Positions 4,640-22,663 of a stretch of 22,663 nt of DNA are shown in pieces. Every line of letters begins with the position of its first letter. The first letter of the stretch is position 1. Below the pieces are notes generated by a model. That model did not search any database and had not been told where the DNA came from. It saw only the letters and a program-made list of their open reading frames with translations. The stretch lies in the IMG/VR virus record IMGVR_UViG_3300021963_000701, positions 1 to 22,663 of that record. The stretch is one strand, 5' to 3'. Origin of the DNA: a virus. Both the position numbers and the translations under genes were made by a program.

Positions 4640-4882
4640 ATGAATCAGGAAATCGACCAACTTCAAAAGTTTACAGTAGAAGAGTTTCAAGCAGATTTTG
4701 ATAATCTGATGGATAGAGTAGAAAAGGGAGAGTCCTTTTTAATAACTAGCGAATATGGAAATGCAGTTATAGTTCCATATAAAGAAGTCATCGATATTAT
4801 GGGTGGAGTAGATTTGTCTATACCTACTCCTAGTGATGATGATCTCTTAAAAATTTATAAAGATCATGAAGAAGGATGTTAA
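4640..4882 (+). CDS. Phd/YefM-like antitoxin-fold protein
   Basis: The product is 80 aa. The core FQADFDNLMDRVEKGESFLI followed by TSEYGNAVIVPYKEVID has the pattern of Phd/YefM antitoxins (helix, then a strand-turn-strand like ITRRGKPVAVLVP), then an acidic C-terminus that in the family binds a toxin. No RelE, Doc or other toxin is visible nearby. The next gene is a sulfotransferase overlapping by 7 bp. It may be an orphan antitoxin blocking a host toxin, a transcriptional repressor, or a repurposed small protein. The start at 4640 was chosen because an ATG at 4633 closes after two codons. Confidence 0.65.
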   Translation: MNQEIDQLQKFTVEEFQADFDNLMDRVEKGESFLITSEYGNAVIVPYKEVIDIMGGVDLSIPTPSDDDLLKIYKDHEEGC

Positions 4883-5439
4883 CTCAACAAAAAATCCTCT
4901 TCGTCCATATTCCCAAAACCAGTGGATCTTCAATTACATTTCATTTATCCAGAAAAGGATTAGATAACTGGAAAAGAGACTTGTTAAATTTCAAGCATCA
5001 TGACTCTCTTATTCAGTTATTGCAGAATAATATAATTGATGATAAAGTATTTAAGTTCAGTGTAGTTAGGAATCCATACACGAGAACATATAGTTATTAT
5101 CATCACTTCATGAAAATAAATTCGTGTTCTCTTACACTTAACGATTTTTTGTGGATCATTAAAAGAAAAATTCATTTTAATGAAACTCCATTAATACAAT
5201 ATCCTCAAAATTTTTATATCTTAAATGAAGATGGTAAAATTGGCGTTGATAAACTTTATAGATATGAAAATCTACATGAGTTAGAAATTGATTTAAATTG
5301 TAAGTTTGATAAAATTAATGTGGGAAACTATAAAAAAGATTCCTACTATAAAGATTATACTAATGATAATATAAATTTAGTTAAAGAAATTTTCTTTGAT
5401 GACTTTAAAATTCTTGATTATCCATTAGAATTTTCTTAA
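4876..5439 (+). CDS. Sulfotransferase family protein
   Basis: The product is 187 aa. The N-terminal HIPKTSGSSI (residues 11-20) matches the 5'-phosphosulfate loop of PAPS-dependent sulfotransferases. VVRNPYTRTYSYYHHF (about 63-78) matches the 3'-phosphate-binding R-x-P...S motif. This is the Sulfotransfer_2-like group that sulfates glycans or other carbohydrates. It is short for the family but both PAPS elements are present. It follows the Phd-like gene with a 7-bp overlap. The target is unknown; modification of the surface glycan built by the operon at 7237-15207 is a plausible guess. Codon use is very A/T-rich. Confidence 0.82.
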   Translation: MLTQQKILFVHIPKTSGSSITFHLSRKGLDNWKRDLLNFKHHDSLIQLLQNNIIDDKVFKFSVVRNPYTRTYSYYHHFMKINSCSLTLNDFLWIIKRKIHFNETPLIQYPQNFYILNEDGKIGVDKLYRYENLHELEIDLNCKFDKINVGNYKKDSYYKDYTNDNINLVKEIFFDDFKILDYPLEFS

Positions 5440-6134: not shown

Positions 6135-6782
6135 ATGTTTGCAAATATAGAAAAGGTAAATGTTTTACCTGAAACTATAATTAAACTTAGTTATAACTTT
6201 AGTTTCGAAAGAACACTAAAAACTAAATGTGATGAAACTATTGGGTATTCTAGTAATCATACTGAAAAAGTCCCTCTAGAGCATGGAAACGCTACCTCAA
6301 CTGTCCTACATAATGTGAATGGCCAACCACATACCTGGACAGAAAATAAAAGGTTTGTTGAATTTTTATATGCAAACATTCCTGCTATTTTAAATGAGTT
6401 TCAATTAATTGAACAACCAATTTCAATAGTTCAATCTTGGATCAATCGTCATTCTACGGGTGGAGAAACTTTAGAACATAACCATCATTCAGTTGATTTG
6501 GTTGTTAGTTCTTACTTGTTTTGTCCACCAAACAGTGGTAATTTGTTGATCAGAGATCCTCTGGAGTATCATAACTGGTGTAGTTTTAGGAAACCATCTC
6601 CAAGTGAAAAGTATCCTTATCCTTGGTTAGAAGTTCCTGTAAAAACAAATGATGTTTTAATTTTTCCTGGTTGGTTAATGCACAAAACAGAAAAAAGTAA
6701 AACTGAAGTTGATAGATACGTAATGACTATTAACCTAAAGTATGGAATGACGGACCCGATGATGAGTCCCGGTATGACTTAA
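6135..6782 (+). CDS. 2OG-Fe(II) oxygenase-like protein
   Basis: The product is 215 aa. It has the layout of the phage 2OG-Fe(II) oxygenase family (related to prolyl hydroxylases): an H-x-H metal cluster in LEHNHHSVDLVVSSYLF (His115/His117), a second-strand GNLLIRDPLE, and a distal DVLIFPGWLMHKTE (His183) with DRYVMTINL (Arg194 for 2-oxoglutarate). These would bind iron and co-substrate to hydroxylate an unknown protein or small molecule. Many T4-like cyanophages carry several such genes; a second is at 16062-16697. It ends the operon started at 5620, together with the small membrane gene at 6813. Confidence 0.75.
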   Translation: MFANIEKVNVLPETIIKLSYNFSFERTLKTKCDETIGYSSNHTEKVPLEHGNATSTVLHNVNGQPHTWTENKRFVEFLYANIPAILNEFQLIEQPISIVQSWINRHSTGGETLEHNHHSVDLVVSSYLFCPPNSGNLLIRDPLEYHNWCSFRKPSPSEKYPYPWLEVPVKTNDVLIFPGWLMHKTEKSKTEVDRYVMTINLKYGMTDPMMSPGMT

Positions 6783-7060: not shown

Positions 7061-7165
7061 ATGACCCCTATGAGTTTCTTGCTTCTCTCAAGAGCAAGTG
7101 GTGCGGATGGGACTCTCTCCCGCCTGGTTTCCAATTTCCAGATAAAGAATTGGTGGCGAGCCTGA
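7061..7165 (+). CDS. Possible 34-aa peptide in the 3' leader region
   Basis: An ATG frame (MTPMSFLLLSRASGADGTLS... to WWRA) fills most of the gap between the membrane gene and the terminator. It is unrecognised. A purine-rich GGTGGTGGAG precedes it. GC content is higher than in neighbours, and there are inverted segments such as GGGA/TCCC near 7109-7121. It may be a structured 3' untranslated region or small RNA instead of a coding gene. Confidence 0.3.
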   Translation: MTPMSFLLLSRASGADGTLSRLVSNFQIKNWWRA

Positions 7166-7173
7166 GCTACCTA

Positions 7174-7202
7174 AGAGGAGTTGCATAAACTCCTCTTTTT
7201 TT
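7174..7202 (+). terminator. Strong terminator overlapping the next promoter
   Basis: AGAGGAGTT (7174-7182) pairs perfectly with AACTCCTCT (7188-7196) over a 5-nt loop, followed by a run of Ts to 7202. The -35 box of the next promoter (7181-7186) starts in the stem and fills the loop. Confidence 0.9.
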
Positions 7203-7236: not shown

Positions 7237-8283
7237 ATGAGTCAATATGTAAAGAAAGCACTTGTTCTTGGTGCTGGTGGTTTCATTGGAAGTCACATGG
7301 TAAAAAGACTACGCGCCGAAGGTTATTGGGTACGTGGTGTAGATTTAAAATATCCAGAGTTTTCTGATACGGAAGCAAACGAATTTGTTATTGGAGATCT
7401 AAGAGATATTACTTTTGTTGAGCGTGTAATTCAATATAAAGGAGATCGTGGAAACTTCTATCATTTTGTTCCTTCACGTTATCTCCAAGCATTTGATGAG
7501 ATCTATCAGTTTGCTGCTGATATGGGTGGCGCAGGTTTCGTCTTTACTGGTGAAAACGATGCTGATATCATGCATAACTCGTCACAAATTAATCTTAATG
7601 TTCTTGAATCTGTAAGGAAGTTCAATGATTTCCTAGGAAAGAACGTTACCAAAATTTTCTATTCTGGATCTGCCTGTATGTATCCAGAGTATAATCAACT
7701 AGATCCTGATAATCCCGATTGCCGTGAAGAATCAGCATATCCCGCAGCACCCGATTCTGAATATGGTTGGGAGAAATTGTTCTCAGAGCGGTTGTTTTTC
7801 GCTTATCATCGTAATTATGGGATCCCTGTTCGGGTTGCTAGGTATCATAATATCTTTGGACCAGAAGGAACTTGGGAAGGAGGTAGAGAAAAAGCACCAG
7901 CAGCAATCTGCCGTAAGGTCGCCTATCTTCCAGAGGAAGGTGGATCCGTCGAGGTGTGGGGAGATGGCTTACAAACTCGTTCCTTCCTGTATATTGATGA
8001 ATGCATCGAAGCAACCCGTAGAATGATGGATAGTGATTTCATCGGACCTGTTAATATTGGTTCAGAAGAAATGGTAACTATCAATCAACTTGTAGATACT
8101 GCTGCTAAAGTTGCTGGTAAGGTTGTAGAAAAGAATCATATTGATGGACCTCTTGGAGTTCGTGGTCGCAACTCTAACAATGATCTTATCCGCGAAAAAC
8201 TCGGTTGGGATTATTCTCAACCACTCGAAGAAGGTATTCGCAAAACCTATAATTGGATCTCTGAACAAATCGCTAAGAAATAA
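7237..8283 (+). CDS. GDP-mannose 3,5-epimerase
   Basis: The product is 348 aa, a short-chain dehydrogenase/reductase epimerase. The NAD site GAGGFIGS is at 12-19. The best match by eye is plant GDP-D-mannose 3',5'-epimerase: SACMYPE with Cys147, the YGWEK pair Tyr176/Lys180, the diagnostic GTWEGGREKAPAAICRK with Lys219, QTRSFLYIDE with Arg248, and GVRGRNS near residue 308. Cys-Tyr-Lys-Lys spacings (29, 4, 39) equal those I recall for the Arabidopsis enzyme. The enzyme inverts C3 and C5 of GDP-mannose to GDP-L-galactose (with some GDP-L-gulose). It is first in the glycan operon and presumably supplies an L-sugar donor to the transferases downstream. No GDP-mannose dehydratase for GDP-fucose is visible. 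Confidence 0.85.
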   Translation: MSQYVKKALVLGAGGFIGSHMVKRLRAEGYWVRGVDLKYPEFSDTEANEFVIGDLRDITFVERVIQYKGDRGNFYHFVPSRYLQAFDEIYQFAADMGGAGFVFTGENDADIMHNSSQINLNVLESVRKFNDFLGKNVTKIFYSGSACMYPEYNQLDPDNPDCREESAYPAAPDSEYGWEKLFSERLFFAYHRNYGIPVRVARYHNIFGPEGTWEGGREKAPAAICRKVAYLPEEGGSVEVWGDGLQTRSFLYIDECIEATRRMMDSDFIGPVNIGSEEMVTINQLVDTAAKVAGKVVEKNHIDGPLGVRGRNSNNDLIREKLGWDYSQPLEEGIRKTYNWISEQIAKK

Positions 8284-8287
8284 AAAA

Positions 8288-9106
8288 ATGAAAGTAATAT
8301 CTAATTTTTCATCAAATTATCCTGAAGATCCTATTAGATTTTTTAATTTTGAGGAATTTGAAGAAAAGGCAAACGACTGTCTTCTCTTCATCGGATGCAA
8401 TCCAGATGAAAGTGTAAAGATTCCGTCAGATATTCCTAAGATTCTATTTTCAACTGAAGAACAATATAATCCAGAGTATCAAAATAATGATCCATTTAAA
8501 ACTGATACTTATGTTCCATATGTAGATAAGATCCTTACAATTTGTGATTCCAAAGTTACAAAAAGAGAAAAAAGACAGAATGTATTTTTTCCCTTTAATA
8601 AGGATATGATTCCAGAACCAACTGAAAAAATTTACGATGTAATCTATACTGGATTCGCTAACATTCCTCACGTTCAAGAATTAACCAGTATTATATCAAA
8701 ATTTAATTATAGGTTTGTTTCTTTCTCTAGACAGACAGGAAAAGAAACAGATATCAATGCGACATACTCAGAAAAACTTAAATTGGTTGCTCAGAGTAAA
8801 TGTTCTATTGTTCACAACCTTCTTAGTTGTGGTACTCCTCAACTTAAGAGTAGGCCTTTTGAAGCAGCGTTTTCAAAAACATTAATGTTAGTTTTAAAAG
8901 ATGAGTATAATGTAATTGAAGAATGGTTTACTCCTGGTGAAGATTTTATCTATTTTGATACTCAAGAAGGTCTAGCAGAGTTGATTGAAACTACAACAAA
9001 GAACTATTCTGACTATTCAAATATTATCGAGAGTGCTTATAATAAAGCAGTCAATGAATATACTACAGAAAAGTTTATTGAAAAATATATTGGTTTTAAG
9101 AAATGA
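8288..9106 (+). CDS. CgeB/YkvP-like glycosyltransferase
   Basis: The product is 272 aa. The C-terminal half has the signature of GT-B glycosyltransferases of the Glyco_trans_1_2 / CgeB group: SKCSIVHNLLSCGTPQLKSR, then PFEAAFSKTLMLVLKDEYNV and a glutamate-containing PGEDFIYFDTQEGLAELIE segment. The N-terminal half (LLFIGCNPDESVKIPSDIPK, then a DVIYTGF) fits the acceptor domain. It would transfer a sugar from a nucleotide donor onto the growing glycan. It starts 4 bp after the epimerase stop; the ATG at 8288 was chosen since earlier in-frame codons lie inside that gene. The stop overlaps the next ATG (ATGA). Confidence 0.72.
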   Translation: MKVISNFSSNYPEDPIRFFNFEEFEEKANDCLLFIGCNPDESVKIPSDIPKILFSTEEQYNPEYQNNDPFKTDTYVPYVDKILTICDSKVTKREKRQNVFFPFNKDMIPEPTEKIYDVIYTGFANIPHVQELTSIISKFNYRFVSFSRQTGKETDINATYSEKLKLVAQSKCSIVHNLLSCGTPQLKSRPFEAAFSKTLMLVLKDEYNVIEEWFTPGEDFIYFDTQEGLAELIETTTKNYSDYSNIIESAYNKAVNEYTTEKFIEKYIGFKK

Positions 9107-10017
9107 AAAAATTTATTGTAACTACAACTATAAATCCTCCAACAGAAGCAACAATTAAGTACTCTCAGAAAACTGATTGGACTTTGATTGTTGTTGGGGA
9201 TACTAAAACACCTCATCAAGAATATGAAAAATTAAATTGCATCTATTTGCATCCAGATGAACAAGAACAAAAGTATCAAGAATTATCTGATACTATTGGA
9301 TGGAAATCCATTCAAAGAAGGAATATTGGATTTGTAGAAGCATATAATTTGGGTGCAGATATTGTAGCTACAGTAGATGATGACAATATCCCTTATGATA
9401 ATTGGGGAGAAGATCTTTACATCGGTCAAGAAATTGAATGTGATTTATATGAACCCACGTTACATGATGTGTTTGATCCTCTTTCCATTACTCAAAGGAA
9501 TGAAGTTTGGCATCGTGGATACCCAATAGAATATGTACCAACTCGGCATAATGTCGAATACAAAGGGAAAATTAAAAGAAAAGTATTAGTACAAGCAGAT
9601 CTTTGGGATGGAGATCCTGATATTGACGCATTAGCAAGACTTTCTATTAAACCAATAGTGAAGTATTCTGATGTAACATCTCCATATTGTTCAAATAAAA
9701 TTTCACCATTCAATAGTCAAAATACTTTTCTTGCTAGAGAAGTAATTCCATTTTATTCAGTATTACCTCATGTTGGTAGAATGGACGATATCTGGGGTGG
9801 ATATATACTACAACATTATTTTCCAAACTCTGTTATCTATAATAGAGCATCTGTTTATCAAGATAGAAATGTTCAAGATCTAATTACAAACCTTGAAAAA
9901 GAAGTAATAGGATATAGAAATACTTTAAATTTAATTAAAGATTTGGAAAATTACGTTAATTATCTTCCAAAAGAAACCCAAGAATATTGGGATGTTTATC
10001 GTAGAGTTTTTGAATGA
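9103..10017 (+). CDS. STELLO/DUF288-like glycosyltransferase
   Basis: The product is 304 aa. The opening KFIVTTTINPPTEATIKY, then DWTLIVVGDTKTP, GWKSIQRRNIGFVEAYNLGA and the acidic ATVDDDNIPYD follow the order seen in eukaryotic DUF288/STELLO proteins, which are GT-A-like. DDDN near residue 92-95 would be the metal/nucleotide-sugar site. A late GRMDDIWGGYIL segment resembles the catalytic-base region of GT-A enzymes. STELLO proteins act in plant Golgi glycan assembly; a phage version implies polysaccharide synthesis but the donor is unknown. ATGA overlaps couple it to the previous gene. Confidence 0.68.
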   Translation: MKKFIVTTTINPPTEATIKYSQKTDWTLIVVGDTKTPHQEYEKLNCIYLHPDEQEQKYQELSDTIGWKSIQRRNIGFVEAYNLGADIVATVDDDNIPYDNWGEDLYIGQEIECDLYEPTLHDVFDPLSITQRNEVWHRGYPIEYVPTRHNVEYKGKIKRKVLVQADLWDGDPDIDALARLSIKPIVKYSDVTSPYCSNKISPFNSQNTFLAREVIPFYSVLPHVGRMDDIWGGYILQHYFPNSVIYNRASVYQDRNVQDLITNLEKEVIGYRNTLNLIKDLENYVNYLPKETQEYWDVYRRVFE

Positions 10018-10018
10018 T

Positions 10019-10822
10019 ATGATTTCTTTTAATAATATTGGTAATCTGGGTAGACTAGCGAACCAGATGTTTCAATATGCTTCTTTGAAGGGCATAGCAA
10101 AAAATAGAGGATTTGATTATTGCATTCCTCCTAAAGATGCATTTGGTGCTTTGGATACTTTGGTAAGAAGATCTGATACAAACTTATATGAATGTTTTGA
10201 TATTCAGTGCGAAAGATATGGGATAACTCAATATAAAAACAGAGAAGAATCTACATTTTCTTTTGATGAAGATCTGTTTAATAACTGTGATGATGAGACA
10301 AATATAAACGGTTATTTTCAAACTGAGAAATATTTCAAAAATATCGAAACAGAAATCAGAAAAGAATTCATCTTCAAAGATGAAATATACACTCCAACAA
10401 AAGAAAAATTTGATGAATTTTTTCCAGGAACAAAAGTAATTTCACTTCATATTCGTAGAGGTGATTATGTTACTAATCCAAATCATCCAGTTCAACCATT
10501 AGAGTATTATCAGAAAGCTTTAAGTTTGTTAGATGAAAACGTTCCAGTTTTGATTTTATCTGATGATCCAAAATGGTGTAATAATCAAAAAATGTTTGAG
10601 GACGACCGATTTTTTGTATCTGATCTTGGAAATAGCAATGTAGATCTTTGTTTAATGACTATGTGTAATTATCATATTATTGCTAATAGTTCTTTTAGTT
10701 GGTGGGGATCTTGGTTAGCTAAGAGTGAAAAAACTATAGCGCCAAAACTATGGTTTGGTGATAGACTATCAAGAGAAAAAGATACGAAAGATATCTATTT
10801 GGAAGATTGGATTGTTATTTGA
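10019..10822 (+). CDS. GT11 alpha-1,2-fucosyltransferase-like
   Basis: The product is 267 aa. All three GT11 hallmarks are present: the N-terminal GRLANQMFQYA (11-21), the GDP-sugar-binding HIRRGDYV (144-151), and ANSSFSWWGSWL (222-233). GT11 enzymes (such as FUT1/FUT2 and bacterial WbiQ/FutC) add alpha-1,2-linked L-fucose to a galactose, making H-type structures. The start is the ATG one base after the previous stop; an ATG at 10014 closes after two codons. In this operon the visible GDP-sugar enzyme makes GDP-L-galactose, a 6-hydroxy analogue of GDP-L-fucose, so the enzyme might use that donor or host GDP-fucose. Length is normal for bacterial GT11. Confidence 0.88.
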   Translation: MISFNNIGNLGRLANQMFQYASLKGIAKNRGFDYCIPPKDAFGALDTLVRRSDTNLYECFDIQCERYGITQYKNREESTFSFDEDLFNNCDDETNINGYFQTEKYFKNIETEIRKEFIFKDEIYTPTKEKFDEFFPGTKVISLHIRRGDYVTNPNHPVQPLEYYQKALSLLDENVPVLILSDDPKWCNNQKMFEDDRFFVSDLGNSNVDLCLMTMCNYHIIANSSFSWWGSWLAKSEKTIAPKLWFGDRLSREKDTKDIYLEDWIVI

Positions 10823-10829
10823 GGTAAGT

Positions 10830-11450
10830 ATGCTTTTAAGTTTTTCACAGTTGTACAAGAAGTACAAGTTTAATATCAAAGGTATAATCCATATTGGGGC
10901 ACATTATGGGGAGGAAATTCCAGAATATATTCATTATGGAATTCAAGATATTGTACTTTTTGAACCTTTAACTTCAAACTTTAATGTTTTATCTGAACGA
11001 GTTAAAGATCTTAATGCTAACATTGAGGGGCATCAATTAGCACTAGGTAATGATAATAAAAAAGTTTCAATGTATTTGAGTAGTAATGAACAACAGAGTA
11101 GTTCAATTCTCAAACCAAAAATTCATTTGACTCATCATCCAAATGTAACATTTGATGGTGTTGAAGAAGTTGATATGGTAAAATTGGATGACTTCAGTTA
11201 TACTAAGTACAACTTCATTAACATGGATGTTCAAGGTTATGAACTTGAAGTGCTCAAGGGTGCTACAGAAACATTAAAAAATATTGACTATGTTTATTGT
11301 GAAGTAAACCGAGATGAGGTTTATGAAAACAATGCATACGTTGAGGAGATTGATGAGTTTCTATCTTCATATGATATGAAGAGAGTTGAAACTAGTTGGG
11401 AAGGTAAAATTTGGGGAGACGCTCTTTACATCAGGGAAAAACTTTTATGA
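10830..11450 (+). CDS. FkbM-family methyltransferase
   Basis: The product is 206 aa. IIHIGAHYGEE (19-29) is the SAM-binding motif I, VLFEPL (42-47) the post-I acidic residue, and NFINMDVQGYELEVLKGA (about residues 130-147) the FkbM hallmark. FkbM enzymes O-methylate sugars or polyketides; here the operon suggests a sugar hydroxyl. GAGGTAAGT just before the ATG at 10830 is a good ribosome site. The stop overlaps the GT6 start by ATGA. Methylation often caps a glycan chain. Confidence 0.85.
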   Translation: MLLSFSQLYKKYKFNIKGIIHIGAHYGEEIPEYIHYGIQDIVLFEPLTSNFNVLSERVKDLNANIEGHQLALGNDNKKVSMYLSSNEQQSSSILKPKIHLTHHPNVTFDGVEEVDMVKLDDFSYTKYNFINMDVQGYELEVLKGATETLKNIDYVYCEVNRDEVYENNAYVEEIDEFLSSYDMKRVETSWEGKIWGDALYIREKLL

Positions 11451-12139
11451 AAATCTGCATTCTTACTATTGCTACAAATAAGTATTTGAAATTTATTGAA
11501 CCTCTTTACAATTCAATCGCTGATAATTTCTTAGTAGACCATGAAATAAATTGTCTACTGCTTACAGATCATGAGTGTGAAGCATCGGATAATGTAAAAG
11601 TTAGTTTCATTGATCATGAACCTTGGCCTATGCCTACTTTAAAAAGATATAATTATTTTCTAAAAGAAAAGGATTATATCCTAGAACATGATTACTGCTT
11701 TTATCTTGATGCTGATATGAGAATTCATTCTCCAGTAGGTGAAGAAATCCTAGGCGATCTTGTTGGAACTATTCATCCTTGGAAATTTAATCAGAATCCA
11801 GAAGATTTTACATACGAAAGAAATGAAAAATCTCTAGCATACATTCCTGTTGGGGAAGGTCTTAACTATTTTGCTGGAGGATTTAATGGTGGAAAGACAG
11901 ATAAATTTATTGAAATGTCTGAGGTTATTGCTGATAGAGTTAATAAAGATTTAGAAAATAATATCGTTGCTGTATGGCATGATGAAAGTCATATGAATCG
12001 ATATATGGTAGATAATCCTCCTTCTAAGATTTTAACCCCCAGTTATTGTTTCCCTGAAGAGTTAATGGGAAATCCAAACTACCCATTTGATCCTAAAATT
12101 ATTGCACTTCAAAAAAATCATTCTGCATTAAGAACATGA
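11447..12139 (+). CDS. GT6 (ABO/alpha-galactosyltransferase type) glycosyltransferase
   Basis: The product is 230 aa. It matches the histo-blood-group ABO and alpha-1,3-galactosyltransferase family: PTLKRYNYFLKE, then DYCFYLDADMRI with a D-x-D metal site (88-90), LNYFAGGFNGGK (about 139-150), and AVWHDESHMNRYM (175-187) followed by NPPSKILTPSYCFPEE. The GGxxGG and WHDESH segments form the UDP-sugar and acceptor sites in the family. Vertebrate enzymes use D-x-D with Mn2+, while most bacterial homologues have N-x-N; this one keeps D-x-D. The family adds Gal or GalNAc in alpha-1,3 linkage, in ABO enzymes to an H-type acceptor. It lies two genes after the GT11, and a 4-epimerase follows. It lacks the membrane anchor of vertebrate members. 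Confidence 0.9.
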   Translation: MKICILTIATNKYLKFIEPLYNSIADNFLVDHEINCLLLTDHECEASDNVKVSFIDHEPWPMPTLKRYNYFLKEKDYILEHDYCFYLDADMRIHSPVGEEILGDLVGTIHPWKFNQNPEDFTYERNEKSLAYIPVGEGLNYFAGGFNGGKTDKFIEMSEVIADRVNKDLENNIVAVWHDESHMNRYMVDNPPSKILTPSYCFPEELMGNPNYPFDPKIIALQKNHSALRT

Positions 12140-12786
12140 AAATAGATTTAAGAGAAATTCCCGCTCTCTATATGAACTTGGAAAGGCATGTAGAGAAGAA
12201 TGAAAACATGCAAAAAATCCTATCTGAATGTGGATTTAAAAATATTCAAAGAGTTGAAGGTGTTCCTAGACCAGATAATCCTGTTGCTGGATGTTCTTTG
12301 GCTCACTTTAAAGGGTTGAATGAATTAGATCCTCCTTTCATTCTTTTTGAGGATGATTGTATGATTAAAAACTTTCAACCAGTTATTGAAGTTCCTGATG
12401 ATGCAGATGCTGTTTATTTGGGAATATCTTCATGGGGAAGAATGAATGGGCATTCTGGACCATATGTTCAATATCAAAAGGTTGAAGGTTATGATGATCT
12501 TTACCAAACATATAATATGTTAGGTGGTCATGCAATTCTCTACCTATCTAAAGAATATGTTTCCATGTGCTCAAGAGTATGTTATCATGCTGGAAATATT
12601 ATCGAGGATTATCAAGACATTGGATTTGCTGAAATTCAAAGGTGGTTTAACATTTATACCTTCAATGAACCATTCTTCTATCAAACAAGTGGATATCATG
12701 GAACAGTTAATAAGTTGACCAGTTATCCAACCGAGGAATGTTTTACATATAACAAACAATACTTTTTACCGGAGAGAATCGTATGA
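12136..12786 (+). CDS. GT25-like glycosyltransferase
   Basis: The product is 216 aa. ALYMNLERHVEKNENMQKIL, VEGVPRP, GCSLAHFKGLNEL and PFILFEDDCMI follow the order of GT25 (LPS/procollagen galactosyltransferase) proteins: a donor loop starting Y-x-N-L-x-R, a G-C-S-x-x-H turn, and an E-D-D metal site near residue 73-75. A second block (NMLGGHAILYLSKEY) fits the acceptor side. Likely a beta-sugar transferase in the same glycan. ATGA-type overlaps on both sides show coupling. A related protein sits at 14410. Confidence 0.75.
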   Translation: MKIDLREIPALYMNLERHVEKNENMQKILSECGFKNIQRVEGVPRPDNPVAGCSLAHFKGLNELDPPFILFEDDCMIKNFQPVIEVPDDADAVYLGISSWGRMNGHSGPYVQYQKVEGYDDLYQTYNMLGGHAILYLSKEYVSMCSRVCYHAGNIIEDYQDIGFAEIQRWFNIYTFNEPFFYQTSGYHGTVNKLTSYPTEECFTYNKQYFLPERIV

Positions 12787-13685
12787 CTAAATCATTAGTG
12801 ACTGGAGGAGCAGGATTTATTGGATCTAATCTAGTAGATCGTCTCATTGAACTTGGACATGAAGTTATCGTAATTGATAATGAATTTTCTGATGCTCATG
12901 ATCATTTTTATTGGAATGATAATGCTAAGAATTACAAGTATGATATTCGTGATTATCAAAACACACGCCCTCTTTATGAGGGAGTAGATTATGTATTCCA
13001 TCTTGCAGCAGAGGCACGTATTCAACCCGCTATCAATAACCCTGTTGAAGCAGTTAGCATTAATACTGTTGGAACATGTACAGTTCTTCAATGTTCTAGA
13101 GAGGCTGGAGTTAAGAGAGTAATGTACTCTTCGACATCTTCTGCTTATGGTAGAAATCCAACTCCAAACATTGAATATATGATTGATGATTGTTTGAATC
13201 CATATTCAGTTTCTAAAGTTGCTGGAGAAAAACTCTGTAAAATGTATACAGAATTATTTGATCTTCCTACAGTTACTTTTAGATACTTTAATGTTTATGG
13301 AGAACGTCAACCTCTTCGTGGACAGTATGCACCTGTAATTGGTATTTTCTTACGTCAACATAAAAATGGAGAACCTCTAACTATTGTTGGAGATGGTCAA
13401 CAATGTAGAGATTTTACTTATGTTGGAGATGTTGTTAATGCAAATATTCTAGCAGCAACAAAAGAAGTAGATTCGCAAGCATTTGGTTTGGTTTATAATG
13501 TTGGTACAGGGAAGAACTATACTATTAATAGTGTAGCAAAAATGATTTCCGATAATACTGTAAATATTGAACCAAGACTTGGTGAAACGAGAGTAAGTCT
13601 TGCTGCAAACGAAAGAATTAAAAATGTTTTTGGTTGGGAACCAACTATGAAACTAGAAGACTGGGTTTCAAATGCACTAAAATGA
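12783..13685 (+). CDS. NAD-dependent UDP-sugar 4-epimerase-like
   Basis: The product is 300 aa. It has SDR motifs: GGAGFIGSN (8-16), HLAAEARI, SSTSSAYG with the catalytic Ser/Thr, PYSVSKVAGEK with Tyr-x3-Lys, and RYFNVYGERQPLRGQYAPVI. These are typical of UDP-glucose / UDP-GlcNAc 4-epimerases of the WbpP/GalE type. It would make UDP-Gal or UDP-GalNAc, the donors used by GT6 enzymes. Small 4-epimerases of about 300 aa are normal. Which substrate it prefers cannot be read from sequence alone. Coupled by overlap to both neighbours. Confidence 0.82.
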   Translation: MTKSLVTGGAGFIGSNLVDRLIELGHEVIVIDNEFSDAHDHFYWNDNAKNYKYDIRDYQNTRPLYEGVDYVFHLAAEARIQPAINNPVEAVSINTVGTCTVLQCSREAGVKRVMYSSTSSAYGRNPTPNIEYMIDDCLNPYSVSKVAGEKLCKMYTELFDLPTVTFRYFNVYGERQPLRGQYAPVIGIFLRQHKNGEPLTIVGDGQQCRDFTYVGDVVNANILAATKEVDSQAFGLVYNVGTGKNYTINSVAKMISDNTVNIEPRLGETRVSLAANERIKNVFGWEPTMKLEDWVSNALK

Positions 13686-14407
13686 TAAAAGTTTTTATAT
13701 TTGCATTTAATAGACCAGACATTCTTCAATTGCAAATTAATTCTATTAAGAAATATCTTATTGGAAATTTTTCAATAGAAGTTGTCTATGATTATCGAGA
13801 TGATGTTCATGGTAATGAATTTGAAAAAATTTGTTTAGACAATAAAATTGTTTTACATAGACATCAATCGTATCCAGGAAAATCTGCAAGTCAATATCAT
13901 GCAGATACATTAATGTGGGTTTATGATAATCTTATTCATAATGATGATATCGTGATCTTTTTGGATCATGATATCTTTTTGTTGGATGAATTTGATGTTA
14001 AAAAATATCTAAATGATTGCGATATTTCTGCATGTTTGCAAAGTAGAGGTCATGTAGAGTATACTTGGCCTGGACTTTTACTATTTAAATATTCATCGAT
14101 CAAAGATATCAATTTTAATTTTGATCCTACTTATGTTGAAGGACAATCTCTCGATAGTGGGGGAGGAACTTATAGCATATTGCGAAATGAAAAAATAAAA
14201 TTTCTACCAATAGAAATTGAATACCCAGATACATACAAAGAAATTGATCTTTTGAATCCAATTCACAATAATGGATTTGGATTTGAATTGTTTATGGATG
14301 GAAAGTTTTTACATTTCAGAAATGCTTGTTCATGGCATATGGATATGAACGTCAATGATCATAAAAAAACTGAAATTTTAAATTTAATTCTAAAAGATTT
14401 TATATAA
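13682..14407 (+). CDS. GT-A-like glycosyltransferase, family unclear
   Basis: The product is 241 aa. The opening KVFIFAFNRPDILQLQINSI and IVIFLDHDIFLLDEF, with a D-H-D metal-type motif near residues 99-101, suggest a nucleotide-sugar-binding GT-A fold. SLDSGGGTYSI and a histidine-rich SWHMDMNVNDHKK follow. I do not recognise the family. Start overlap ATGA with the epimerase at 13682-13685 places it firmly in the operon. Very A/T-rich. It could be a transferase or a related glycan-modifying enzyme. Confidence 0.6.
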   Translation: MIKVFIFAFNRPDILQLQINSIKKYLIGNFSIEVVYDYRDDVHGNEFEKICLDNKIVLHRHQSYPGKSASQYHADTLMWVYDNLIHNDDIVIFLDHDIFLLDEFDVKKYLNDCDISACLQSRGHVEYTWPGLLLFKYSSIKDINFNFDPTYVEGQSLDSGGGTYSILRNEKIKFLPIEIEYPDTYKEIDLLNPIHNNGFGFELFMDGKFLHFRNACSWHMDMNVNDHKKTEILNLILKDFI

Positions 14408-14409
14408 AA

Positions 14410-15207
14410 ATGGATAAGAACAAATCTGCATATAAATTGAAAAACCTTGGCCCAATTTATTATCTGAATCTTGATGGGCAACCTGAAAGAAAGGAATACA
14501 TGGAGTCTCAATTTAAGTATTGGGAAATTGAAAATTATACTCGTATTTCTGCATATGACGGTAGAGATGATGATCTAAGCGATCTTATCAAGGGTCGTTA
14601 TCCTGAAATGATGAGTTCTGGTGAAGTTGGTTGTATAACTTCTCACCTCAAAGCAATTAAGCATTGGTATGAAACATCAGATAGTCCGTATGCAATCATT
14701 ATGGAAGATGATTGCAATCTGGATCTAGCTAAGTATTGGAATTTTACTTGGTCTGATTTTTATGCCCATATTCCATATGATTGGGATGTTGTTCAAATTG
14801 CTATTATTTGTACTGGCGATTTGCATGTAAAACTCCATAAGAGATTTGTAAATGATTTTTCAACCGCTTGTTATTTGATTAATCGTCATCATGCGGAAAA
14901 ACTTCTAAAGTTTCATGTTAGAGACAATAAGTATAAACTTGATAATGGTGTTAAACCACGTCCAGTAGCTGATGATTTGATTTACAATTCAGGTAATACT
15001 TATTCAATCCCTCTCTTCTTCTATAAAATTGAGTTGGGATCAACAATACATCCAGAGCATATTGATGCTTTTCATAAAGGAAATTATGAAGGACTTTTAA
15101 ATTTCTGGAGTCAGAATGGATCTATTTTGCAGATTAATGATCTTATGAATTATGATCCATATTTGGGAAGGGTAACCGAAAGCACTGCGATCAGGCAAGA
15201 GGCTTGA
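14410..15207 (+). CDS. GT25-family glycosyltransferase
   Basis: The product is 265 aa. YYLNLDGQPERKEYMESQF (17-35), ISAYDGRDD, SGEVGCITSHLKAIKHW (70-86) and YAIIMEDDC (92-100, E-D-D site) are the standard GT25 sequence order. CYLINRHHAEKLL and KPRPVADDLIYN give the later turn and D-D motif. The family transfers hexoses, often galactose, to LPS or protein. It is the last gene of the glycan operon. The final TGA overlaps the TTGACT -35 box of the next promoter. Confidence 0.83.
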   Translation: MDKNKSAYKLKNLGPIYYLNLDGQPERKEYMESQFKYWEIENYTRISAYDGRDDDLSDLIKGRYPEMMSSGEVGCITSHLKAIKHWYETSDSPYAIIMEDDCNLDLAKYWNFTWSDFYAHIPYDWDVVQIAIICTGDLHVKLHKRFVNDFSTACYLINRHHAEKLLKFHVRDNKYKLDNGVKPRPVADDLIYNSGNTYSIPLFFYKIELGSTIHPEHIDAFHKGNYEGLLNFWSQNGSILQINDLMNYDPYLGRVTESTAIRQEA

Positions 15208-16061: not shown

Positions 16062-16697
16062 ATGCCTGAGATTTTAAATTTATTTTCTATACCAATTTTC
16101 GTAGAAAACATTAACAACTATTGTGATGATGGAAATGAAATTATTTCCACAACAATCAAAGATTTAAAAAAAGAAAATTGGAGTTTAAATTCGCCATCAT
16201 TTAAGCAAACTGAATCAGGAACATTACATAAAAATTTAAGATATTCAAAGTTAGTAAATTTCTTTGAAAGTGTTTTAAATGATATCAAAACAAAATATCA
16301 TTATGATACTGAAAAATTTGAAATCATTAACATGTGGGCTAACAAGTCTTCAACTAATGGATTTCATAAAGAACACTTTCATACAAATTCTTATTTGAGT
16401 GGGGTATTTTATTTGACTGGTGGATCCGAAATATTTTTCAATGATCCAGTCAATAGTAGATCCAATACTTTATTATTCGTCAAATCATCATTAGATAATA
16501 GTAAATGTGAAATAAAACCAATACCTGGATCATTAATTGTTTTTCCTAGTTGGTTAGTTCATGGGACTAACCAAAATAAAGATATATTTGAAAGAGTGAG
16601 TATTAGTTTTAATACCTTTCCTCAAGGAAAAATAAACTTTAATTCTGGAGAAACATTTAACTATTCCAAATTAGATATTAAAGAATTAGGAAATTAA
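16062..16697 (+). CDS. 2OG-Fe(II) oxygenase
   Basis: The product is 211 aa. It matches the phage 2OG-Fe(II) oxygenase family (putative hydroxylase, PF13759 type): NGFHKEHFHTNSYLSGVFYL with metal His105/His107, FFNDPVNSR, PGSLIVFPSWLVHGTNQN (His167) and ERVSISFNTF (Arg178 for 2-oxoglutarate). The typical first motif LFSIPIFVENI is also present at residues 7-17. It would hydroxylate an unknown substrate using host 2-oxoglutarate, which is abundant during nitrogen stress. It lies between the hli gene and petF. Confidence 0.87.
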   Translation: MPEILNLFSIPIFVENINNYCDDGNEIISTTIKDLKKENWSLNSPSFKQTESGTLHKNLRYSKLVNFFESVLNDIKTKYHYDTEKFEIINMWANKSSTNGFHKEHFHTNSYLSGVFYLTGGSEIFFNDPVNSRSNTLLFVKSSLDNSKCEIKPIPGSLIVFPSWLVHGTNQNKDIFERVSISFNTFPQGKINFNSGETFNYSKLDIKELGN

Positions 16698-18305: not shown

Positions 18306-18977
18306 ATGACGTTAGATCTTCATAACTTTTTTAAGTTTTATGATGATACAAATGCGAATCATGTAGCAGCAGTTCAATGGTTAGAAGATAATCTACCTGC
18401 TCAATTCCTAGACGACTCAGAAACTGATTGGATTGGAATTTTTAGAACTAAACCCCCTACACCAGCAGTTCTTGCAGTTCCATACTTCAATCAAGTAGAC
18501 AACTATAGAGATGCACATAGAACCTGCAACTCTTCATCGTGCGCTATGTGCCTTGCTTTCCTCAAGCCAGGAAGCATTAAAGGTGATGATGAATATGTTA
18601 AGAAAGTATTTGCAATTGGTGATACGACTGATCATGCCGTACAGACAAAAGTTCTGGCTGGTTATGGAGTTAAGTCACACTTTAGTTACAATCTTTCTTT
18701 TGCTGATATTGATAAAAGTCTTGATGCTGGGAAGCCTGTCGTTATTGGTATCTTGCATCGCGGTCCTCTATCTGCACCTACTGGTGGGCACATGTGTGTT
18801 GTAATTGGTAAAACGCCAGATGGTAAAGGATACTATGTAAATGATCCATATGGCTCATTGAACGATAACTATACTGGTCCAGTTACAAATGGTAAGAAGA
18901 CCATTTACACCAAAGCAGTTCTTAAGCATCGTTGGTGCCCAGGCGGCAATGATGGTTGGGGAAGAATTTTCGATTGA
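18306..18977 (+). CDS. C39-like cysteine peptidase with lysin N-terminal module
   Basis: The product is 223 aa. Residues 4-47 (LDLHNFFKFYD... to IGIFR) are a module also found at the start of the GH24 muramidase gene next door. A Pro-rich linker follows (KPPTPAV), then a Peptidase_C39-like domain: VPYFNQVDNYRD, catalytic Cys74 in RTCNSSSCAM, His162 in GGHMCVVIG, and Asp180 in YYVNDPYGS. It probably cuts peptidoglycan cross-bridges or a host protein. It is first behind the late promoter, so it acts at lysis or in the virion. No signal peptide. Confidence 0.85.
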   Translation: MTLDLHNFFKFYDDTNANHVAAVQWLEDNLPAQFLDDSETDWIGIFRTKPPTPAVLAVPYFNQVDNYRDAHRTCNSSSCAMCLAFLKPGSIKGDDEYVKKVFAIGDTTDHAVQTKVLAGYGVKSHFSYNLSFADIDKSLDAGKPVVIGILHRGPLSAPTGGHMCVVIGKTPDGKGYYVNDPYGSLNDNYTGPVTNGKKTIYTKAVLKHRWCPGGNDGWGRIFD

Positions 18978-18991
18978 TAGGAGAACAAAAA

Positions 18992-19663
18992 ATGGCACGT
19001 ATCGATTTGCACAACTTCTTCAAGTTCTATGACGAGAAGAACCCTAATCACGTTAAAGCAGTTCAGTGGTTGGAAGATAATCTCCCAGTCAAATATCTAG
19101 AAGATAATATTGATTGGGCAGAAATTTATCGCGGAAAAAAGACTAGTGCTGCACCAGCATCTGCACCCGCTGCTGCAGCTCCAGTAACAGGTGGTGATGA
19201 TGTCCCACAAATGGGAATTAAATTAATTAAAGAGTTTGAAGGATGTCACTTAAAGGCATATCCTGATCCTCTTACAGGTGGACTTCCAATTACTATTGGT
19301 TGGGGTTCAACACGTAAGAAAGATGGATCACATTTTAAACTAGGTGATACATTAACCCAACAAGAAGCAGACCAACTTCTTATCGAACAATGCAAGAATG
19401 AATTCCTTCCTGCCTTGCGTAAAATCCCTTATTGGAGTGAAATGTCTGATGGAAAAAGAGGCGCTCTGCTCAGCTTTGCTTATAATCTTGGTGCCGGTTT
19501 TTACGGTGGTGATAACTTTAATACTATTACTAAACGCCTGAAGAATAAAGAGTGGGACTTAGTGCCCGATGCGCTTTATCTCTACAGAAATCCTGGTTCT
19601 AATGTTGAAGCAGGTCTTGCTCGTAGAAGAAAAGCAGAAGGTGAAGCTTGGAAAAAAGGTTAA
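18992..19663 (+). CDS. GH24 muramidase endolysin with shared N-terminal module
   Basis: The product is 223 aa. An N-terminal module (residues 5-47) matches the upstream peptidase gene at about 70% identity. An Ala/Pro-rich linker (52-66) follows, then a T4-type lysozyme domain from about 74: KEFEGCHLKAYPDPLTGG with Glu83 and Asp92, PITIGWGST with Thr101, and ALLSFAYNLGAGF and AGLARRRKAE as the later conserved parts. It hydrolyses the glycan strands of peptidoglycan. No signal or anchor is seen, so it needs a holin (candidate at 19682). Ribosome site GATAGGAG precedes the ATG. Confidence 0.93.
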   Translation: MARIDLHNFFKFYDEKNPNHVKAVQWLEDNLPVKYLEDNIDWAEIYRGKKTSAAPASAPAAAAPVTGGDDVPQMGIKLIKEFEGCHLKAYPDPLTGGLPITIGWGSTRKKDGSHFKLGDTLTQQEADQLLIEQCKNEFLPALRKIPYWSEMSDGKRGALLSFAYNLGAGFYGGDNFNTITKRLKNKEWDLVPDALYLYRNPGSNVEAGLARRRKAEGEAWKKG

Positions 19664-22123: not shown

Positions 22124-22663
22124 ATGGAATACTACACTTACGCTTATTTGCGTGAAGACGGAACACCTTATTACATCGGTAAAGGTAAGGGGTTTAGATT
22201 GTATGTTAAAAAAAGAATTGTGCCTTTACCAAGTAAAGATAGAATAATATATCTAAAAAGAAATCTAACAGAGCAAGAGGCAATCAAACACGAAATTTAT
22301 ATGATTGCTGTTTATGGTAGAAAAGATAATGGGACTGGTATTTTGAGAAATCTTACTGATGGTGGAGAGGGAACTTCTGGTAAGATTATTAGTGAAGAAC
22401 AAAAGAAATCTCATAGTTTGAGGATGAGTGGTACAAATCACCCTTTTTATGGTAAAACTGCTTCAAAATCTCATAGAGAAAACATAAGTAATGCTTTATC
22501 TGGTAAGAAAAAAACAAAGGAACATATAGAAAAACTACCACAAAATAAGAAAGGAGCAGTTCGTTCCCAAGAATTCAAGGACAAAAGAAAAAATTATATG
22601 ACTGGGAGAAAGTGGTGGAATAATGGTGAAGTTGAAAAACTTTTTGGTGGTAATGAAGTTCCT
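22124..22663 (+). CDS. GIY-YIG homing endonuclease (3' end beyond window)
   Basis: At least 180 aa, open at the window end. TYAYLREDGTPYYIGKGKGF (residues 5-24) is a GIY-YIG catalytic motif of the Y-x-Y-L-R...Y-Y-I-G-K-G type. EQEAIKHEIYMIAVYGRKD continues the fold with the conserved Glu, and NLTDGGEGTSG closes it. SEEQKKSHSLRMSGTNHPFY, then GKTASKSHRENISNALSGKK, are NUMOD3-like DNA-binding repeats. Such freestanding enzymes cut phage DNA to spread their own gene. Expression seems controlled by the inverted repeat and late promoter just upstream. The C-terminal MTGRKWWNNGEVEKLFGG matches a module common in phage homing endonucleases. Confidence 0.92.
   Translation, partial: MEYYTYAYLREDGTPYYIGKGKGFRLYVKKRIVPLPSKDRIIYLKRNLTEQEAIKHEIYMIAVYGRKDNGTGILRNLTDGGEGTSGKIISEEQKKSHSLRMSGTNHPFYGKTASKSHRENISNALSGKKKTKEHIEKLPQNKKGAVRSQEFKDKRKNYMTGRKWWNNGEVEKLFGGNEVP

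Follow-up and report, generated by a model that had tools for sequence, protein, structure and literature searches.

A candidate glycan-assembly operon in a T4-like cyanophage

IMG/VR record IMGVR_UViG_3300021963_000701, which was analyzed over its entire 22,663 bases (22.7 kb, hereafter the window), is a fragment of a phage genome in which a glycosyltransferase family 11 (GT11) gene and a glycosyltransferase family 6 (GT6) gene follow one another in the order of ABO blood-group synthesis. The gene content of this viral contig, including hli, ferredoxin, peroxiredoxin, endolysin, and 2-oxoglutarate (2OG) oxygenase genes, identifies the source as a T4-like cyanophage, and 23 tRNA genes are present. 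Megablast against phages returned no full-length relative of the window; the nearest named relative, Synechococcus phage DSL-LC02, covers 16%.

The cassette is led by a full-length wcaG RNA (RF01761, positions 7070 to 7167, plus strand), detected with cmscan at 101 bits against a gathering threshold of 42 (E = 1.1e-18). Between this RNA and the first gene lies a hairpin with a 10-bp stem and a T run (7173 to 7197, plus strand) that resembles an intrinsic terminator by consensus match only. The genes that follow are also on the plus strand and extend from the start of a GDP-mannose-3,5-epimerase (GME) gene at 7237 to position 15207. The GME gene (7237 to 8283) and two further genes (8288 to 9106 and 9103 to 10017) precede the GT11 gene (10019 to 10822, ATG at 10019). 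Next come genes for an FkbM-type O-methyltransferase (about 10830 to 11450; PF05050, 70 bits against a cut-off of 22.7, with TIGR01444 also above its cut-off), GT6 (11447 to 12139), a GT25-like protein (12136 to 12786; phrog_24091, 2.5e-81, with a weak match to phrog_2835), and a short-chain dehydrogenase/reductase (SDR; 12783 to 13685; PF01370, 195 bits against 20.9) that is plausibly a UDP-sugar 4-epimerase for UDP-Glc/Gal or UDP-GlcNAc/GalNAc. From GT11 to this epimerase the genes overlap or nearly abut, forming one packed operon. The first-pass annotation of this DNA had described just such an arrangement, with a single methyltransferase between GT11 and GT6 and a 4-epimerase one gene after GT6, and it was borne out. 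Besides the genes reported there, the operon holds at least four further glycosyltransferase-like genes.

GT11 and GT6 appear to be intact members of their families

Profile searches upheld the family assignments of both enzymes, which had been proposed from their motifs. GT6 matched Pfam PF03414 (Glyco_transf_6) at 149 bits against a cut-off of 25 and phrog_3317 at 1.5e-74, and scored 214 bits against NCBIfam NF041524, under that model's cut-off of 250. GT11 matched PF01531 (Glyco_transf_11) at 86 bits against a cut-off of 23.9 and phrog_2644 at 3e-110. The motifs originally quoted, HIRRGDYV and ANSSFSWWGSWL for GT11 and DAD and WHDESH for GT6, are present, and alignments of either enzyme revealed no loss of catalytic residues.

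GT6 aligns over its full length with Bacteroides ovatus BoGT6a (6.7e-43) and human GTA (8e-37), and its AlphaFold model (predicted local distance difference test score, pLDDT, of 95) adopts a GT-A fold with a template modeling (TM) score of 0.93 to BoGT6a. The DAD motif, WHDESH, which contains the catalytic Glu in WHDE, and a C-terminal Lys all align with GTA and BoGT6a. The UDP-GalNAc-binding and catalytic residues of BoGT6a have been defined (PMC3961637), and every mappable donor- or acceptor-site residue is kept in the phage protein (T10, Y13, W66, T70, R73, H122, T134, A155-G156-G157, WHDE 189-192, and K231). At the positions equivalent to GTA 266-268, this predicted ABO-type alpha-1,3-GalNAc/Gal transferase carries AGG, the tripeptide typical of A transferases (PMC6351642), and is therefore predicted to transfer alpha-1,3-GalNAc. 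Because it has a DXD motif where BoGT6a has NXN, the phage enzyme should be metal dependent.

GT11 keeps motif I (HxRRxD) and an SSFSWW motif, and residues H144, R146, R147, D149, N223, S224, S227, W228, and W229 are invariant over 45 phage GT11 sequences. A sequence search of the PDB found no solved relative of this alpha-1,2-L-fucosyltransferase-type enzyme; matches came from a fold search alone, using an AlphaFold model with a pLDDT of 95.6. The best of these were nearly all fucosyltransferases (NodZ, FUT8, POFUT1, and AtFUT1; E values of 7e-7 to 1e-4, TM about 0.5-0.6), in keeping with the GT-B-like fold of such enzymes.

The GT11-GT6 pair is conserved among viruses and recurs in bacteria

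GT6 loci were collected from IMG/VR (four scans) and GTDB genomes (one scan), giving 183 unique viral loci and 80 bacterial ones. At 141 of the viral loci a GT11 gene precedes GT6 on the same strand by no more than 3 kb, and at 104 the two abut; conservation over the 183 loci rules out pairing by chance. This survey bears out the GT11-then-GT6 logic of ABO synthesis that had been proposed for the window alone. By donor tripeptide, the viral GT6 enzymes comprise 128 QGC and 67 AGG types; the QGC tripeptide was seen at none of the 80 bacterial loci.

It could nonetheless be argued that the substrates of GT11 and GT6 are separate glycans and that the ABO logic is a coincidence within a mixed set of surface-sugar genes. 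Several viral cassettes hold two GT11 copies, and GT6 does occur without an upstream GT11, mostly in AGG-type cassettes (33 have and 26 lack a same-strand GT11 in the 3 kb upstream); QGC-type GT6, on the other hand, has GT11 just upstream, often abutting, at 93 of 103 loci. The two genes are also paired independently in diverse bacteria (within 3 kb at 34 of the 80 GT6 loci), and the bacterial GT6 enzymes BoGT6a and WbnI act on Fuc-alpha-1,2-Gal (PMC3961637, PMC4202792). We consider action on separate glycans unlikely.

An apparently interchangeable donor slot holds putative GDP-L-galactose or GDP-L-fucose genes

The protein encoded at 7237 to 8283 matches Arabidopsis GME (PDB 2c59) at 1.4e-86, compared to about 1e-17 for GDP-fucose synthase, and in the alignment to 2c59 it keeps the equivalents of Cys145, Lys217, and Arg306. 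A Cys acid, a Lys base, and an Arg near the Cys are diagnostic of GME, while GDP-fucose synthase has His/Lys instead (PMC8787198). The expected product of the phage enzyme is GDP-L-galactose, which is GDP-L-fucose with a hydroxyl at position 6. For both this protein and the 4-epimerase, all NCBIfam equivalog matches fell far below cut-off. In nearly all of 37 GenBank phage records the GME gene bears the name of a generic epimerase or, mostly, of UDP-glucose 4-epimerase; the correct name appears in the original S-SCSM1 record only.

No GMD or Fcl gene, the route to GDP-fucose, was found in the 22.7-kb record. The notion of donor supply within the operon held only in part: the UDP-sugar 4-epimerase is present, but the GMD/Fcl route for the GT11 step is absent, and GME stands at the operon start instead. 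Given this absence and the position of GME, L-galactose may take the place of L-fucose as the bridging sugar. Among 112 viral GT11-GT6 loci with any donor gene (from IMG/VR, GenBank phages, and the window), 68 carry only GMD and/or Fcl, 43 carry only GME, and 1 carries both. The whole records of 11 GenBank phages follow the same pattern (five with GMD and Fcl, five with GME, one with neither, and none with both). S-SCSM1, which carries GMD, Fcl, and GME together along with a GT11, is an exception to the either/or rule among cyanophages. GME abuts GT11 at 35 of 44 loci, and Fcl does so at 37 of 68.

On the GT11 tree, the donor label changes 5 times, compared to 34 when shuffled. Monophyly of the GME-associated GT11s was rejected by the approximately unbiased (AU) test (p-AU of 5e-8 with the window and 0.017 without it), which implies repeated exchange of the slot. 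These results indicate that the donor slot is interchangeable between GME and GMD with Fcl. Residues in GT11 itself also track the donor: most GME-type GT11s (39 of 43) have a one-residue loop insertion after HxRRxD that only 1 of the 68 GMD/Fcl-type GT11s shares, and a G/T difference after HxRR follows donor type as well. With only two to three independent pairs on supported branches, significance is out of reach, and because there are so few independent changes we treat the insertion as a lead rather than proof.

The RNA leader is shared by both kinds of cassette. A search with a model built from three sequences, leaving out the wcaG of S-SCSM1, gave 32 strong matches at related loci; in 26 of them the wcaG homologue lies no more than 1 kb upstream of whichever GDP-sugar gene comes first, GME or GMD. 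Since wcaG precedes either module, its ligand may be related to GDP-mannose or to GDP-L-sugars.

The second donor gene shows an association of its own. A 4-epimerase lies within 5.5 kb downstream of GT6 at 45 of 50 AGG-type loci compared to 11 of 82 QGC-type loci, which supports a role for the putative 4-epimerase in supplying the GT6 donor. The window protein, of the SDR fold family, matches GalE (PDB 4zrm, 7.5e-51), WbpP (1.9e-41), and WbgU (8e-41). The phrog_24091 GT25-like gene adjoins AGG-type GT6 at 42 of 50 loci.

Proposed pathway

Taken together, we favor, with modest confidence, the interpretation that T4-like cyanophages use this operon for glycan assembly, making a branched determinant of the ABO type with an interchangeable supply of L-fucose or L-galactose. 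From gene content and order, intact active sites, folds, conservation, and the nature of the donor slot, we infer the following reactions and linkage order, with GT11 and GT6 acting on one glycan. GME, behind the wcaG leader, would convert host GDP-mannose to GDP-L-galactose, while GMD and Fcl of sister cassettes would produce GDP-L-fucose. GT11 would attach the L-sugar alpha-1,2 to galactose, and GT6 would then add alpha-1,3-GalNAc to the branched galactose, with UDP-GalNAc/UDP-Gal supplied by the 4-epimerase. The FkbM enzyme may O-methylate the product, and the other glycosyltransferases may build or cap the remainder.

Several observations weigh against this interpretation. Co-occurrence of GT11 and GT6 is no proof of action on one glycan, and the activities and glycan structure of these phage proteins are predictions from sequence. 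The 4-epimerase could act on either substrate class, the small Ser at its supposed gatekeeper position (from the alignment to T. maritima GalE) being compatible with Glc or GlcNAc. With regard to the L-sugar, the window GT11 does not have the GME-type loop insertion and groups with the P-SSM2-like, GMD/Fcl-associated GT11s, its nearest relatives by tree path carrying GMD and Fcl. The record being a fragment, GMD and Fcl could sit elsewhere in the genome, and since two genes separate GME from GT11, GME could serve one of those.

These last points make it a serious possibility, with a little less than an even chance, that the window GT11 uses GDP-L-fucose supplied by the host, or by phage genes beyond the ends of the fragment, to form a standard A-type determinant, with GME feeding the transferase encoded at 8288 to 9106 or 9103 to 10017. 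That GMD, Fcl, and GME coexist in S-SCSM1 is consistent with such a division of labor. In related cassettes, however, GMD and Fcl occupy the wcaG-led start, which in the window is taken by GME. Several fucosyltransferases, including a plant alpha-1,2-fucosyltransferase, accept GDP-L-galactose (reviewed in PMC8787198). The GT11 of the window is of the fucose-associated type yet its slot holds GME, and we regard two accounts as nearly equal: a recent donor swap, or a GT11 that still draws on GDP-fucose provided by the host or by phage genes beyond the fragment, with GME feeding another transferase.

Extending the proposed pathway further, we tentatively suggest that cyanophages make an L-galactose analogue of ABO antigens, GalNAc/Gal-alpha-1,3-[L-Gal-alpha-1,2]-Gal. 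A single slot behind the wcaG leader would switch between GDP-fucose and GDP-L-galactose modules, altering the antigen by one hydroxyl and possibly changing its recognition by competing phages or grazers. We would sooner doubt this extension than accept it.

Remaining cassette genes and the target of the glycan

The other cassette genes, all on the plus strand, include a Glyco_trans_1_2 glycosyltransferase (8288 to 9106; PF13524, 36 bits against 25), a GT-A-like protein with a DHD motif (13682 to 14407) that has no Pfam or PHROG match and recurs in related cassettes, and a GT25 glycosyltransferase (14410 to 15207; PF01755, 48 bits against 24; phrog_2835, 4.5e-127). The protein encoded at 9103 to 10017 has no Pfam match and may be a STELLO/GT75-like GT-A enzyme. 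Its relatives score 117-134 bits at loci L303, L307, L314, and L326 and 510 bits at locus L068; relatives sit near bacterial GT6 genes, including in the cyanobacterium Moorena (L326). A promoter scan of the window gave matches no more frequently than in shuffles.

The GT25 family includes protein-hydroxylysine galactosyltransferases, and 2OG-Fe(II) oxygenase genes flank the operon at 6135 to 6782 and 16062 to 16697. It is conceivable, therefore, that the transferases, along with the GT25 enzymes and these oxygenases, modify proteins of the tail or capsid instead of host lipopolysaccharide (LPS), and a Pfam search of 10 cassette proteins found no flippase, polymerase, or ligase. Such oxygenases are widespread in cyanophage genomes generally, however, wcaG RNAs are usually found ahead of genes for exopolysaccharide or high light (PMC2864571), and the authors of cyanophage genomes interpret genes of this kind as LPS modification (PMC9602691). 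We lean against a virion target while considering it possible.

Outside the cassette, the region at 4876 to 5439, upstream, matches the phage galactose-3-O-sulfotransferase family phrog_3347 (1.5e-12), and a Phd-like antitoxin without an obvious toxin partner is encoded at 4640 to 4882. Two overlapping open reading frames (ORFs) at 18306 to 18977 and 18956 to 19663 correspond to two halves of endolysin-like phrog_3617, reflecting a split gene or a frameshift. A homing-endonuclease-like ORF (22124 to 22663) lies at the record end.

Comparison with known systems

The suggestion that the GT11-GT6 pairing might be undescribed found no support, either for phages or in general. Deposited records of P-SSM2, ACG-2014f, and S-8S56 already have both genes annotated, with the same order in P-SSM2, and E. 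coli O86 provides a bacterial precedent. In the literature searched, whose coverage does not extend to key older papers, the papers on S-SCSM1 and BoGT6a were the only relevant ones, and neither an ABO-type cassette in a phage nor donor-slot exchange was described; the apparent replacement of fucose genes by an L-galactose gene seems to be previously undescribed. If the proposed pathway is correct, the making of ABO-type determinants would not be a peculiarity of vertebrates and a few gut bacteria but would be common among marine viruses. As for the either/or slot, it amounts to a natural experiment in which related GT11s are paired with a GDP-fucose or a GDP-L-galactose supply, so that direct tests are possible of donor specificity in alpha-1,2-fucosyltransferases and of what L-galactose does biologically. 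The analysis also exposes widespread misannotation of phage GMEs, and the presence of wcaG before either module, both of which begin from GDP-mannose, offers a lead to what this orphan RNA senses.

At the level of single enzymes, BoGT6a is the closest solved relative of the phage GT6; the two have the AGG tripeptide and acceptor-site residues in common, but BoGT6a has NXN and is metal independent, whereas the phage enzyme has DXD. Plant and bacterial GMEs (Arabidopsis, Methylacidiphilum) resemble the phage GME in sequence and in their Cys/Lys/Arg catalytic set. The plant enzyme serves ascorbate and cell wall synthesis, whereas the phage enzyme heads a glycan operon.

At the level of gene clusters, the O-antigen cluster of E. 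coli O86, a blood-group-B producer, combines the GT11 WbwK and the GT6 WbnI in one cluster, as does the window (PMC4202792). It makes a bacterial O-antigen repeat unit with a fucose donor and has no GME. The window cassette works like this cluster but is not one, having GT11 and GT6 together with GME in a 22.7-kb record from which GMD and Fcl are absent. Among Synechococcus phages, S-CAM9, S-PRM1, S-8S56, and SynMITS9220M01 carry a GME that is 66-84% identical to that of the window, followed by GT11 and GT6, and in Bellamy GME, GT11, and a glycosyltransferase gene are joined by 4-bp overlaps. The cassettes of the former four differ from the window in that their GT6 is of the QGC rather than the AGG type, their GT11 has the loop insertion, and a downstream 4-epimerase is as a rule missing. 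The gene order of the window is matched by the cassette of Prochlorococcus phages P-SSM2 and P-SSM5 (PSSM2_257-271), in which GT11, one or two genes, GT6, a phrog_24091 homologue, a sugar epimerase, and GT25 are followed by hli, with GT6 62% and GT11 53% identical to their window counterparts. That cassette starts with GMD and nucleotide-sugar epimerases of the GDP-fucose route, whereas the window starts with GME, and the glycosyltransferases between the donor genes and GT11 differ from those of the window.

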